Below are positions 47,978 through 51,544 of a stretch of DNA of 64,000 bases, in pieces. The DNA is taken from NCBI RefSeq assembly GCF_010671565.1, contig NZ_JAABOQ010000001.1:682001-746000 (forward strand), read 5' to 3'. The stretch comes from Spongiivirga citrea. Lineage in GTDB: Bacteria > Bacteroidota > Bacteroidia > Flavobacteriales > Flavobacteriaceae. Every line of letters begins with the position of its first letter. The stretch's first letter is position 1. The position numbers and the translations under genes were made by a program. The notes under the pieces are model-generated. The model ran no database searches and had not been told where the DNA came from. It was given only the letters and a program-made list of their open reading frames with translations.

Positions 47978-48001
47978 AACTTTCAATAATTATTGAAAGT
48001 T
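47978..48001. promoter_or_regulatory. 24-bp palindromic operator before the GbsR/MarR-type gene
   Basis: AACTTTCAATAA is followed directly by its reverse complement, making a perfect 24-bp palindrome that contains TTTCA-N8-TGAAA. It overlaps the ATTG upstream element (47992-47995) of the regulator promoter. A second TTTCA-N8-TGAAA site lies at 48550-48567. The site also lies in the region shared with the divergent glycosyltransferase gene. It most likely binds the regulator encoded beside it. Confidence 0.75.
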
Positions 48002-48021
48002 TAAAAATTATCATATATTTG
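47992..48021 (+). promoter_or_regulatory. promoter of the GbsR/MarR-type gene
   Basis: ATTG (47992-47995) is followed after 18 nt by TATATTTG (48014-48021), an exact TAnnTTTG box. The box ends 4 nt before the ATG at 48026, so the transcript would be leaderless or nearly so. The upstream element lies within the palindrome, which fits autorepression. Confidence 0.65.
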
Positions 48022-48025
48022 TCCT

Positions 48026-48529
48026 ATGACTTACAATGAAGCGAAAGATAAATTTATTCAAACTTGGGGCGCGTTAGGTACAACTTGGGGTATTAACAAA
48101 GCAATGGCGCAAATTCAAGCCTTGCTTTTTATCTCGACTGAGGCGTTGACTATGGAAGAGATTATGGACGAATTACAAATATCACGTGGAAATGCAAGCA
48201 TGAATTTAAGACAGCTAATGGACTGGGGAATTGTATTCAAAGAATCGAAACGTGGGGAACGAAAGGAATATTTTACCACAGAAAAAGACGTTCAAGAACT
48301 GGCTAGACAAATTGCCAAAGAACGAAGTCGTCGTGAGATTAAACCAGTAATTAAAGTACTAAAAGAACTTTCTGATATCAAGAAGGACGGATCTGCTAAG
48401 AATGATGAATTCATCAAGCAAACAAAATCGTTGTACGAACTTGCCGAAACGGCGGATACAATGCTAGAAAAAATGGTAAATCACAAGCAAAACTGGATTA
48501 CCAAGTCGATATTTAAAATGATCAAATAA
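48026..48529 (+). CDS. GbsR/MarR-family transcriptional regulator
   Basis: A 167-residue winged-helix regulator. MAQIQALLFISTEALTMEEI, then MDELQISRGNASMNLRQLMD, is the helix-turn-helix and wing region of the GbsR/MarR group, and the C-terminal half is helical for dimerisation (SLYELAETADTMLEKM). A palindrome at its promoter and a related one before the next gene suggest it controls itself and the operon after it. The signal it senses is unknown. Confidence 0.88.
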   Translation: MTYNEAKDKFIQTWGALGTTWGINKAMAQIQALLFISTEALTMEEIMDELQISRGNASMNLRQLMDWGIVFKESKRGERKEYFTTEKDVQELARQIAKERSRREIKPVIKVLKELSDIKKDGSAKNDEFIKQTKSLYELAETADTMLEKMVNHKQNWITKSIFKMIK

Positions 48530-48549
48530 TATTTTTTTTAATATATATA

Positions 48550-48567
48550 TTTCAATAATTTCTGAAA
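48550..48567. promoter_or_regulatory. second TTTCA-N8-TGAAA operator
   Basis: TTTCA (48550-48554) and TGAAA (48563-48567) with an 8-nt spacer lie 18 nt before the ATG at 48586. The shared bases include TTTCAATAATT of the first site. It is an imperfect copy of the 24-bp palindrome and likely binds the same protein. Confidence 0.65.
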
Positions 48568-48585
48568 CTTTAAAATAAAAGAAAA

Positions 48586-48930
48586 ATGAAAACAGTTTAT
48601 AAATTAAATCTCTGCATCTATATAATTACCCTTGGGTTGTATTTAACTATCTATTTTGGTTTGCTCAGCCAAATACTTTTGGGCGTACTTCAACTAATCA
48701 TCTTCTTCTGCTTATTATTCACTTTAAAAAGATACTCTCTTGAAAGTATTAAACGGATTTCTATATACGGAGTATTGGTGCTTTTCTACTTCCTAGTTGC
48801 CTTTATCATAAAAGAAAACAACTTTTCAGGTGCTTTTTATGTATACATAATGTATTGGACTTTAATCCCCATGTCTTTAGCTACTTTCTTTCTTTTTATT
48901 ACTTATAGACTAAAACAAGAGCACTCATGA
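48586..48930 (+). CDS. small membrane protein of unknown function
   Basis: A 114-residue, very hydrophobic protein with about four membrane segments and short charged loops (LKRYSLESIKR, IKENNFSG). I recognise no family. Its stop overlaps the start of the DCC gene by 4 nt (ATGA), so they are coupled. It is the first gene after the second operator, in the operon presumably controlled by the GbsR-type protein. Confidence 0.75.
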   Translation: MKTVYKLNLCIYIITLGLYLTIYFGLLSQILLGVLQLIIFFCLLFTLKRYSLESIKRISIYGVLVLFYFLVAFIIKENNFSGAFYVYIMYWTLIPMSLATFFLFITYRLKQEHS

Positions 48931-49751
48931 AAACACTTACAAATCACACCTTAATATATGACAGCGATTGTCCTTTATGTGTTGGATACACAGATTTGTT
49001 TATAAAAAACAACATGTTGGATAATCAAGGAAGAAAAGCTTTCGCTCAAATAAATGAAGAGGAATCAACTTTACTCGATATCAAACGAGCTCAAGATGAA
49101 ATTGCTTTGATTAATAAAAAATCAGGTGTAGTCACTTACGGCTTAGAAAGTATGCTGCTGGTTATCGGAAATCGGTACAAATGGATAGAAACACTGGCAA
49201 GAATTCCTATTCTATTCTTCCTATTAAAAAAACTGTATAAATTTATTTCGTACAATCGTAAAGTAATCGTGCCAACTCAAAAGTCGACTACGGCAATTGA
49301 GTGCACACCATCTTTTAGTATTCGGTATCGATGGTATTTTATCTTATTCAGCGTATTGATATCTACACTGGTGTTACATCAATACTTTTTGTTAATACCG
49401 AGTATTATTTCATCAACTGGTCTAGAAAAAGCATTAATCATGTGTGCTTTACAAGTGCCATTTCAAGCATTAATGCTTCGGTTAACTACTAGAAACTATA
49501 TCCTGACATATTTAGGAAATATGATAGCGATCTCGCTTATTGGTTCATTATTATTGCTCCCAATACTATTAGCAAGCCAATTTATTTTTCCTGGTGAGGC
49601 GTTTCTAATAGCATATTTCATACTCGTTTTTGGTTTTATGGTGTTATTTCATATAAAGCGAGTTGCTAATCTCGAGCTCCCACCCTATTTAACACTAAGC
49701 TGGATAGTATATCGGTTACTATGGATTCCAATTTTAATTCAATTTATATGA
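48927..49751 (+). CDS. DCC-family (DUF393) thiol-disulfide oxidoreductase-like protein with membrane domain
   Basis: A 274-residue protein. The N-terminal 130 residues form a thioredoxin-like DCC domain with DSDCPLC at 12-18 (Cys15 and Cys18, the redox pair). The C-terminal part has about four to five membrane segments, so the DCC domain is anchored at the membrane. Function is unknown. It is coupled by 4-nt overlaps to both neighbours. Confidence 0.83.
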   Translation: MKTLTNHTLIYDSDCPLCVGYTDLFIKNNMLDNQGRKAFAQINEEESTLLDIKRAQDEIALINKKSGVVTYGLESMLLVIGNRYKWIETLARIPILFFLLKKLYKFISYNRKVIVPTQKSTTAIECTPSFSIRYRWYFILFSVLISTLVLHQYFLLIPSIISSTGLEKALIMCALQVPFQALMLRLTTRNYILTYLGNMIAISLIGSLLLLPILLASQFIFPGEAFLIAYFILVFGFMVLFHIKRVANLELPPYLTLSWIVYRLLWIPILIQFI

Positions 49752-50671
49752 AAAAGATGGTCATCGCAGGTGGTACTGGGTTTTTAGGTCAGATACTCGC
49801 TGAATACTATAAAAATAAATACGAAACGATTTTCATTCTCTCTCGAAGGAAAAAAGATTCCAATGGTAATATTAATTATGTACAATGGGATGGAAAAAGT
49901 AAAGGCAGTTGGTTTTCTCATTTAGAAAATGCCGATGTGCTCATCAATCTTACCGGAAAATCGGTTGATTGTAGGTATAATGAGAAGAATAAAACGGCAA
50001 TACTAAATTCTAGAGTCGACGCAACAGAAATTCTAGGCCATGCTATTAGGATATGCGATAATCCACCAAAAGTTTGGCTTAATTCTTCTACAGCAACTAT
50101 ATATCGCCATAGTATGGATAAAGAAATGGACGAAGAAACGGGCGAGATTGGTACTGGGTTTTCCGTAAGTGTGGCTACATCTTGGGAAGAATCATTCTTT
50201 AGCCAAATAACTCCCAAAACAAGAAAAGTAGCCTTGCGTACCGCAATTGTATTAGGGAAAAAAGGTGGCTCTTTAAAACCTATTGTCAATTTAGTAAAAG
50301 CTGGTTTGGGAGGAAAACAAGGCTCAGGAGATCAATATTTTAGTTGGCTGCACGAAGATGATTTCGCAAATGCAATTGAATATATCATAAGCAATAAACA
50401 TTTAGACGGAGTCTTCAATCTTGTCGCGCCAAAGCCAGCAACTAACAAACAGCTTATGGGAAGGATTCGTTATCTATTAAAAATTCCATTTGGTATGCCA
50501 CTTCCAAAATGGCTTTTAGAAATTGGTGCTATTATGATTCGAACTGAAACCGAACTTGTATTAAAAAGTCGACGTGTAATTCCGAAAAGATTAATGGATG
50601 AAGGCTATTCATTTAAATATGGTGATTTAACAAAATGCATGAATCATCTACTGCTAAACAAGAAAAAATGA
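49748..50671 (+). CDS. TIGR01777-family NAD(P)-binding epimerase-like protein
   Basis: A 307-residue protein from the ATG at 49748; this start makes a 4-nt ATGA overlap with the previous gene, while the ATG at 49721 would overlap by 31 nt. It has the Rossmann motif VIAGGTGFLGQILAEYY and NLTGKSVDCRY, the TSWEESF segment, RTAIVLGKKGGSLKP and the FSWLHEDDF motif, then a C-terminal DUF1731-like region. The family is an extended short-chain dehydrogenase group without a settled reaction. Confidence 0.9.
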   Translation: MKKMVIAGGTGFLGQILAEYYKNKYETIFILSRRKKDSNGNINYVQWDGKSKGSWFSHLENADVLINLTGKSVDCRYNEKNKTAILNSRVDATEILGHAIRICDNPPKVWLNSSTATIYRHSMDKEMDEETGEIGTGFSVSVATSWEESFFSQITPKTRKVALRTAIVLGKKGGSLKPIVNLVKAGLGGKQGSGDQYFSWLHEDDFANAIEYIISNKHLDGVFNLVAPKPATNKQLMGRIRYLLKIPFGMPLPKWLLEIGAIMIRTETELVLKSRRVIPKRLMDEGYSFKYGDLTKCMNHLLLNKKK

Positions 50672-50682
50672 AATAATTATTT

Positions 50683-50690
50683 TACATTTG
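50683..50690 (+). promoter_or_regulatory. candidate -7 box of the sigma factor gene
   Basis: TACATTTG matches TAnnTTTG exactly and lies 19 nt before the ATG. No TTTG is present upstream at the right distance. The sigma gene may therefore be expressed both from here and by read-through from the operon above. Confidence 0.4.
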
Positions 50691-50709: not shown

Positions 50710-51264
50710 ATGACGAAAGAAAAAATAGAACCGAACAAATGGATAGACCGCTATGCGGATTATCTTTTTAACTACACTATAACCCGTGTAAACGATCGAG
50801 AGATTGCACAAGACTTAGTACAGGAAACATTTTTCGCTGGTTTAAAGTCAATGAAAAATTTTAAAGGAGAAGCAAGCGAGCGAACTTGGCTAGTTTCGAT
50901 TTTAAAAAGAAAAATCATTGATCACTATAGAAAAATAAATAGTAAAAAAGGCCAAGCTGAAGTACGAATAAACTACAATAGTAGTGAGGAAGGTGAAGGC
51001 GATTGGCTCGAAGAGCGTGTTGCCGACCTTTCCGATCTTGGTGCAGCGGGTAACATGGAAAATGAAGAGCTAGGAGATGCCATAAACAACTGTATATCTA
51101 AATTACCTGAAAAACAAGCGGCGGTTTTTAAAATGAAAACACTGCAAGGCTATGAAACCGAAACTATTTGTAATGAATTAGATATTACCGCGTCTAATTT
51201 GTGGGTAATAATCCATAGAGCACGAACTGCATTAGCGGAGTGCCTAGAAGAAAATTGGTTTTAA
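50710..51264 (+). CDS. ECF-type RNA polymerase sigma factor
   Basis: A 184-residue sigma factor with only regions 2 and 4. Region 2 includes DREIAQDLVQETFFAGLKSM and FKGEASERTWLVSILKRKII; region 4 includes LPEKQAAVFKMKTLQGYET and DITASNLWVIIHRARTALAE. The linker (about 80-115) is acidic. It is followed 16 nt later by a small Cys-containing protein that looks like its anti-sigma factor. Target promoters are unknown. Confidence 0.9.
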   Translation: MTKEKIEPNKWIDRYADYLFNYTITRVNDREIAQDLVQETFFAGLKSMKNFKGEASERTWLVSILKRKIIDHYRKINSKKGQAEVRINYNSSEEGEGDWLEERVADLSDLGAAGNMENEELGDAINNCISKLPEKQAAVFKMKTLQGYETETICNELDITASNLWVIIHRARTALAECLEENWF

Positions 51265-51280
51265 AAAAAGAATTATAACA

Positions 51281-51544
51281 ATGGCATATAAGAAAAGTGT
51301 CTTATTTATTAGCTGCGATGAAGCCAAGCACATTTGCGACAAAGTCCAATACGGTGAAGCAAGTGGATGGGAAAAGTTCAAATTGAACCTAAGACTATCA
51401 TGGTGTAGATTTACAAAAGCATATAGTAAGCGTAATAACAAGTTATCAGAATTAGTTCAAAAAGCTGAGGTTAAGACGTTGGATAACGATCTTAAAAACA
51501 AGATGCAAAAAGAACTAGAAAGAGAATTATCAAACAGTAAGTAG
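51281..51544 (+). CDS. small zf-HC2-like protein, probable anti-sigma factor
   Basis: An 87-residue basic, soluble protein. It has Cys in SCDEAKHICDKVQYGEASG and SWCRFTKAYSKRN, the layout of a zf-HC2 anti-sigma domain, but the usual His-x3-Cys-x2-Cys is reduced (LRLSWCRF), so the zinc site is incomplete. No membrane segment follows. Position directly after the sigma gene (16 nt) supports an anti-sigma role; this is an inference. Confidence 0.7.
   Translation: MAYKKSVLFISCDEAKHICDKVQYGEASGWEKFKLNLRLSWCRFTKAYSKRNNKLSELVQKAEVKTLDNDLKNKMQKELERELSNSK

Follow-up and report, generated by a model that had tools for sequence, protein, structure and literature searches.

Conserved paired palindromes at a GbsR-type regulator gene and its neighbouring membrane and redox genes in Spongiivirga citrea and related Bacteroidota

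The regulator, its two sites and the neighbouring genes

The window, a stretch of 64,000 nucleotides from Spongiivirga citrea, contains a regulator gene, two palindromic sites and a set of three cargo genes, followed by a sigma factor gene and a small gene after it. The regulator gene (48026..48529, forward strand) encodes a GbsR-type MarR regulator of 167 amino acids with a winged helix, an assignment on which sequence, Pfam and fold matches agree and which a preliminary description of this DNA had already made. Its closest solved relative by both sequence and fold, compared here by protein alone, is Mj223 (PDB 1KU9, E 4.7e-17), the same entry (1ku9) being the best Foldseek match by E-value (6.8e-10), while Pfam MarR_2 is matched at 34 bits against a cut-off of 27. 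The AlphaFold model (pLDDT 89.2) consists of an N-terminal winged helix and C-terminal helices. The protein missed the cut-off of NF047500, the equivalog model of the choline regulator CudC, with 53.6 against 218 bits.

Site 1, located upstream of the regulator gene, is a perfect 24-bp palindrome, AACTTTCAATAATTATTGAAAGTT (47978..48001, unstranded), with the core TTTCA-N8-TGAAA at 47981-47998, and is a probable autoregulatory operator. Promoters of Bacteroidota carry a -7 box with the consensus TAnnTTTG together with a -33 element. A -7 box of this form, TATATTTG (48014..48021, forward strand), lies between site 1 and the regulator's ATG, and a TTG within the right arm of site 1 (47993..47995, forward strand) occupies the position of the -33 element. 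Among orthologues, the first base of this triplet is T in 109 of 132 rows and C, giving CTG, in 23 of 132, and of 131 distinct loci, 126 have TAnnTTTG downstream of site 1, at 12-14 nt from the palindrome in 124 of these. Since the -7 box ends only 4 nt before the ATG in the window and in 103/132 rows, its position suggests that the regulator transcript would be near-leaderless.

Site 2 is an imperfect copy of site 1 (48547..48570, unstranded; core TTTCAATAATTTCTGAAA, 48550-48567) that retains the half-sites and the 8-nt spacer, and its core ends 18 nt upstream of the ATG of the next gene at 48586. The pair of operator-like elements that had been reported before is thus present as described. 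Across 133 loci, the distance from the end of the 24-mer to the ATG of the next open reading frame (ORF) is 13-17 nt in 116, with a median of 15. Site 2 is consistently asymmetric among orthologues (TTTCTGAAAGTTTAAAA), and a TTT stands 7-9 nt upstream of the 24-mer, conserved at 90-95% per column in 129 rows. Besides this TTT, column counts across loci brought out no conserved block within 40 nt upstream of site 2. The window itself carries TATATTTC near site 2, one base away from TAnnTTTG.

The cargo begins with a small membrane protein (48586..48930, forward strand), a predicted four-helix bundle without a Pfam match, belonging to a cargo family designated f8. Its model is confidently four-helical (pLDDT 93.6), no Foldseek match was obtained below E 0.001, and the best VIA-align Z of 9.1 falls within the range given for unrelated helical bundles. 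The second gene (48927..49751, forward strand) encodes a DCC1-like thiol-disulfide oxidoreductase domain with a membrane C-terminal part (40.1 bits, cut-off 27.8), and the third (49748..50671, forward strand) a short-chain dehydrogenase/reductase (SDR) of the TIGR01777 family (268.5 bits, cut-off 207.35). Neighbouring genes overlap by 4 nt, and this arrangement, along with the two scores above their cut-offs, confirms the coupled set previously recognised.

Downstream, the unit is taken to end at a separate -7 box, TACATTTG (50683..50690, forward strand), which precedes an ECF sigma factor gene (50710..51264, forward strand; TIGR02937 86.5 bits, cut-off 42.9) that is a neighbour outside the unit. 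The small gene after it (51281-51544) is called anti-sigma-like from its position, its score with NF052368 (14.8 bits) missing the cut-off of 50.

Conservation of the sites, the cargo and the flanking genes

The regulator was found in 59 of 299 genomes of the family (E up to 1e-10). For comparison, 139 loci were assembled: the window, 58 others from those family genomes and the best 80 of 112 named loci, which include Aquimarina, Kordia, Psychroserpens, Algibacter and Winogradskyella. The family-genome and named sets overlap, and removal of 7 loci with duplicate upstream DNA left 132 distinct rows. A matrix scan placed site 1 in 138/139 loci, the exception (L054) beginning within the gene, and site 2 in 136/139; one further locus (L154) also carries site 2, which leaves L080 and L116 without it. 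The count for site 2 is an independent test, because only first sites went into the training of the matrix. An untrained check found both half-sites of site 1 exact in 131 of the 132 distinct rows, the row of L054 being actually its site 2 and the one failing row, L146, being due to a misplaced gene start. The scan of related genomes for sites before orthologues, which the preliminary description had suggested, therefore located them where they were expected. Gelidibacter japonicus has the locus twice, on scaffolds whose upstream DNA is identical (L109, L110), a duplication or an assembly artefact.

The cargo is modular. In counts out of 139 loci, duplicates included and with one representative scanned per family, the small membrane proteins fall into families f8 (62), f12 (51) and f13, mostly paired (49), and relatives of the window's TIGR01777 protein occur in 94/139 loci. 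A methyltransferase is present in 75/139, an SRPBCC-like protein in 52/139 (a weak Pfam match below the cut-off), DUF2071 in 34/139, DoxX_3 in 15/139, and the DCC protein or just its membrane part in 20/139, while a fatty-acid-desaturase-family protein was encountered in two tested loci (L071 and L242). The window combines f8, DCC and SDR. A number of Aquimarina loci, including L096-L098 and L100-L102, have a DCC-matching gene of about 146 amino acids that seems to encode the membrane part alone. Some loci (for example L071, L079, L159, L160, L165 and L168) contain a third operator copy deeper inside the cargo.

In most family loci, two stable blocks flank the regulator-cargo unit. The upstream block is marked by a peptidase gene in 117/139 loci, which we take to be of the M3 type, and the downstream block, comprising the sigma, anti-sigma-like and UbiA-like genes, is found in 128/139. 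In L093 and many other Aquimarina loci, the small anti-sigma-like gene behind the sigma factor has two matches. The preliminary description had included a sigma/anti-sigma pair among the genes behind the second site; both the sigma gene and the small one behind it are indeed present, yet no evidence links either to the sites. The pair looks like an independent neighbour of the unit, because the sigma factor occurs in many more family genomes than the regulator does (239 of 299 at E up to 1e-50, the regulator in 59), is preceded by its own -7 box in 114/120 loci, and among 39 distant regulator loci gave a single match, a weak one on the opposite strand (L246).

These distant loci extend the comparison. 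The regulator occurs in 67 of 246 order-level and 138 of 395 phylum-level genomes (E up to 1e-8), sets that overlap each other and the family set. A total of 40 distant loci were chosen, of which 39 had a regulator match and the one without (L263) was dropped. Site 1 was present in 19 of the 39, and a second copy accompanied it in 16 of the 19. Relatives of the cargo were recognised in 17 of the 19 loci with site 1 versus 0 of the 20 without; the two loci with site 1 and no recognised cargo are L245 and L248, and in L248 and L260 the contig breaks off shortly behind the regulator. Among the 20 loci without the site are a clade with longer proteins and four loci (L227, L230, L241, L244) whose short regulators have other surroundings. 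A tree groups 14 of the long regulators with a support of 91/100, on a branch that is not starred, and site presence requires five label changes on it. The recognition helix of the four short regulators is very similar, yet they have no site, and the helix sequence was rejected as a predictor of the site within Bacteroidota, closely similar helices occurring with and without it.

Specificity of the motif and its occurrence in other relatives

The bare pattern TTTCA-N8-TGAAA is weak by itself, matching 4 times in the window where 0.48 matches are expected, the two other than sites 1 and 2 lying inside long ORFs. Considerably sharper discrimination came from full-length scoring. The matrix trained solely on site 1 of other loci, with the window left out, gave 36.8 for site 1 and 21.4 for site 2, compared with 7.8 for the next-best place in the window and a maximum of 10.3 in the reversed window. 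Likewise, a profile built from 74 sites of other genomes (32 first and 42 second sites, the window left out) ranked site 1 and site 2 first and second in the 4.15-Mb genome with 27.8 bits and 22.5 bits, respectively; 16.0 bits (E 0.09) was reached by the next distinct place, and no place beyond these two fell below E 0.01 in the genome. Because just two places pass this threshold, the regulon is local in S. citrea, with strong sites solely at the regulator and the next operon, and the wider regulon suggested earlier does not appear in its own genome. Other family genomes might still hold a wider one. Three of the places ranked after these two were inspected, and one of them, the third-ranked place, L192:1970-1987 (G000:C17:95770-95787; TTTCAGTAAAAACTGAAA), lies in the gap upstream of a gene taken by eye to be recA or RecA-like.

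Some profile match at E up to 0.1 occurs in 258 of 299 family genomes, and among the matches listed, five places lie in genomes without a regulator match at 1e-10. The places in G149, G027, G102 and G270 are situated within or between ordinary genes and look like chance matches. In G286, a strong site (L189, G286:C1:21554-21577, matrix score 32.2) remains in the stretch from the peptidase side to the sigma gene, beside two other ORFs. The sigma gene is kept there, the regulator and the cargo are absent, and a remote GbsR relative (26% identity) is encoded elsewhere in the genome. L189 is probably an operator remnant after loss of the regulator-cargo unit.

The same motif is known from a distant relative. 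CydE of Alishewanella sp. WH16-1 is a GbsR-type repressor of cytochrome bd genes that was footprinted on TATTTCAGAAATTTCTGAAAGTTCA (PMC6096048). This footprint holds TTTCA-N8-TGAAA exactly and scores 20.8 with the matrix, against 6.9 for the best of 20000 shuffles; a second footprint of CydE (PMC6096048) does not fit the motif.

Additionally, relatives of the regulator were examined in 15 loci chosen by hand out of 158 plasmid records carrying such a gene, a set that represents few independent lineages and in which five gene starts were set by hand in records unannotated there, that of L276 being unsure. In 13 of the 15, TTTCN-N8-NGAAA was found between positions -200 and +25 relative to the gene start, the exceptions being L271 and L279. 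Six loci with the recognition helix SRSNVSM adjoin cytochrome bd or cydD genes, and all six have the site TTTCA..TGAAA. Six others with the helix ARSNVS[N/T] (L266, L277, L270, L272, L267 and L276) have TTTCT..AGAAA as site 1 in 6/6, with a second copy 3' of the regulator in 4/6, two of these with mixed arms (TTTCT..TGAAA). L269, with the helix SRGNVSM, also has mixed arms, which speaks against a strict Ser/Ala rule. In Cupriavidus campinensis and Burkholderia, the regulator is followed by a gene for a fusion of an SDR with DoxX_3. Novosphingobium has a DUF4166 gene at this place with an SDR gene behind it, and Methylobacterium oryzae, by annotation, a DUF4166 gene and an SDR.

Proposed regulation, alternatives and relation to known systems

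The sequence, its conservation, the protein family and the position of the sites relative to the promoter boxes are directly established, and binding of the regulator to the sites is made likelier by analogy with the CydE footprint (PMC6096048). The reading that we prefer, at a probability of roughly 80%, is that a GbsR-type repressor dimer binds both palindromes, represses itself at site 1, blocks read-through at site 2, and is released by an inducer that switches on regulator and cargo together. With both palindromes occupied by the dimer, the repressor at site 1 would sit over the -33 element of its own gene's promoter and so cause autorepression, which the arrangement of site and promoter boxes favours. 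At site 2, the repressor would halt RNA polymerase arriving from the regulator gene, a roadblock like that reported for GbsR of Bacillus subtilis. No housekeeping promoter is recognisable for the first cargo gene itself, so that it would depend on read-through. An inducer would then free the repressor, and the regulator, the small membrane protein, the DCC protein and the TIGR01777 SDR would be expressed together. A roadblock at site 2, with the cargo mostly read from the regulator's promoter, is favoured because the -7 box is rare before site 2, TAnnTTTG occurring in the 250 nt upstream in just 3/136 loci (0/139 in a regulator-internal control), and because the first called ORF 3' of the regulator is co-directional in 138/138 loci.

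The most serious competitor, appreciably less probable than the roadblock but still worth weighing, accepts both sites as operators of the regulator and proposes that the cargo has a separate promoter of non-consensus type, perhaps of an alternative sigma factor, which site 2 overlaps and at which the repressor would act by steric exclusion. The asymmetry of site 2, the conserved TTT before it and the near-match to TAnnTTTG in the window are compatible with such a promoter, as are terminator-like hairpins, found by a crude pattern upstream of site 2 in 23/129 loci; at these loci read-through would be partial, or a non-consensus promoter would exist. Against this proposal stand the rarity of TAnnTTTG and the column counts before site 2 given above.

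It is improbable that the palindromes are bound by another regulator, with the GbsR-type gene merely a conserved neighbour. The strong sites adjoin this very gene, the related CydE binds the same architecture (PMC6096048), and plasmid-borne relatives of other phyla also carry the motif beside the regulator gene. Still harder to maintain is the suggestion that the elements act as RNA hairpins, serving as a terminator, a leader or a translational control. Site 1 folds well as RNA (-7.7 kcal/mol, equalled by 1/200 shuffles), but it lies upstream of the -7 box and would presumably not be transcribed from that promoter. Site 2 reaches only -1.4 kcal/mol (20/200 shuffles as good), its 71-nt region does no better than shuffles (113/200 as good), and the site 2 region of L140 gives -5.6 kcal/mol with 40/200 shuffles as good; this weak folding of site 2 compared with shuffles led to rejection of the hairpin as the main reading. 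Chance palindromes in AT-rich DNA, for which one could cite the modest excess of the bare motif in the genome (26 versus 17 in the reversed control), are refuted by the conservation of two fixed places in nearly all loci and by the full-profile ranking.

The proposed repressor resembles CydE in being GbsR-type, in having TTTCA-N8-TGAAA as its probable site and in probably acting on its own promoter region, and differs in its targets: CydE controls cytochrome bd genes and is reported to be derepressed by sulfate (PMC6096048), whereas the present cargo is of the membrane, SDR and DCC kind and has a second operator before it. No cydAB or cydCD genes lie beside the regulator at this locus, where the neighbours are the membrane, DCC, SDR and sigma genes. 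In B. subtilis, OpcR is reported to act over the -35 element and GbsR by a roadblock at a position downstream of the start site (PMC7396694). These proteins share with the present one the GbsR type and AT-rich inverted-repeat operators; however, the GbsR half-sites are 4 bp apart and the targets are choline and betaine genes (PMC7396694), compared with the 8-nt spacer and the different cargo here, and two regulators serve the two modes, whereas here a single regulator would use both. A 2018 survey reports Bacteroidetes GbsR-type genes without a consistent neighbourhood (PMC6207618); the present regulator belongs to the same phylum and family and represents one sub-branch with recurrent cargo and a conserved operator pair. 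No described operon of this regulator-cargo kind was recognised in the literature searched, which was thin on subscription journals. The unit is real and conserved, acts locally, is probably autoregulatory and belongs to a known kind.

A broader proposal joins these observations, and we regard its chances as even. One operator code, TTTC[A/T]-N8-[T/A]GAAA, would span a large GbsR branch of Bacteroidota and Proteobacteria, with residue S53 (Ser/Ala) of the recognition helix tracking the last base of the half-site. The two-operator unit, in which the regulator with site 1 is followed by site 2 and an SDR/DoxX_3/DUF4166/DCC membrane module, would form an unrecognised GbsR class beside the osmoprotectant and cytochrome bd classes, and one repressor would employ both promoter occlusion and roadblock. 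The sites found so far offer a hint of such a cross-phylum code.

One sub-branch of Bacteroidetes GbsR proteins can now be assigned a probable operator and a probable target operon, as well as unnamed membrane and redox genes that recur with it, which makes its function testable. Further, the operator links these regulators to CydE, and GbsR targets in other phyla can be sought with it as a simple pattern.
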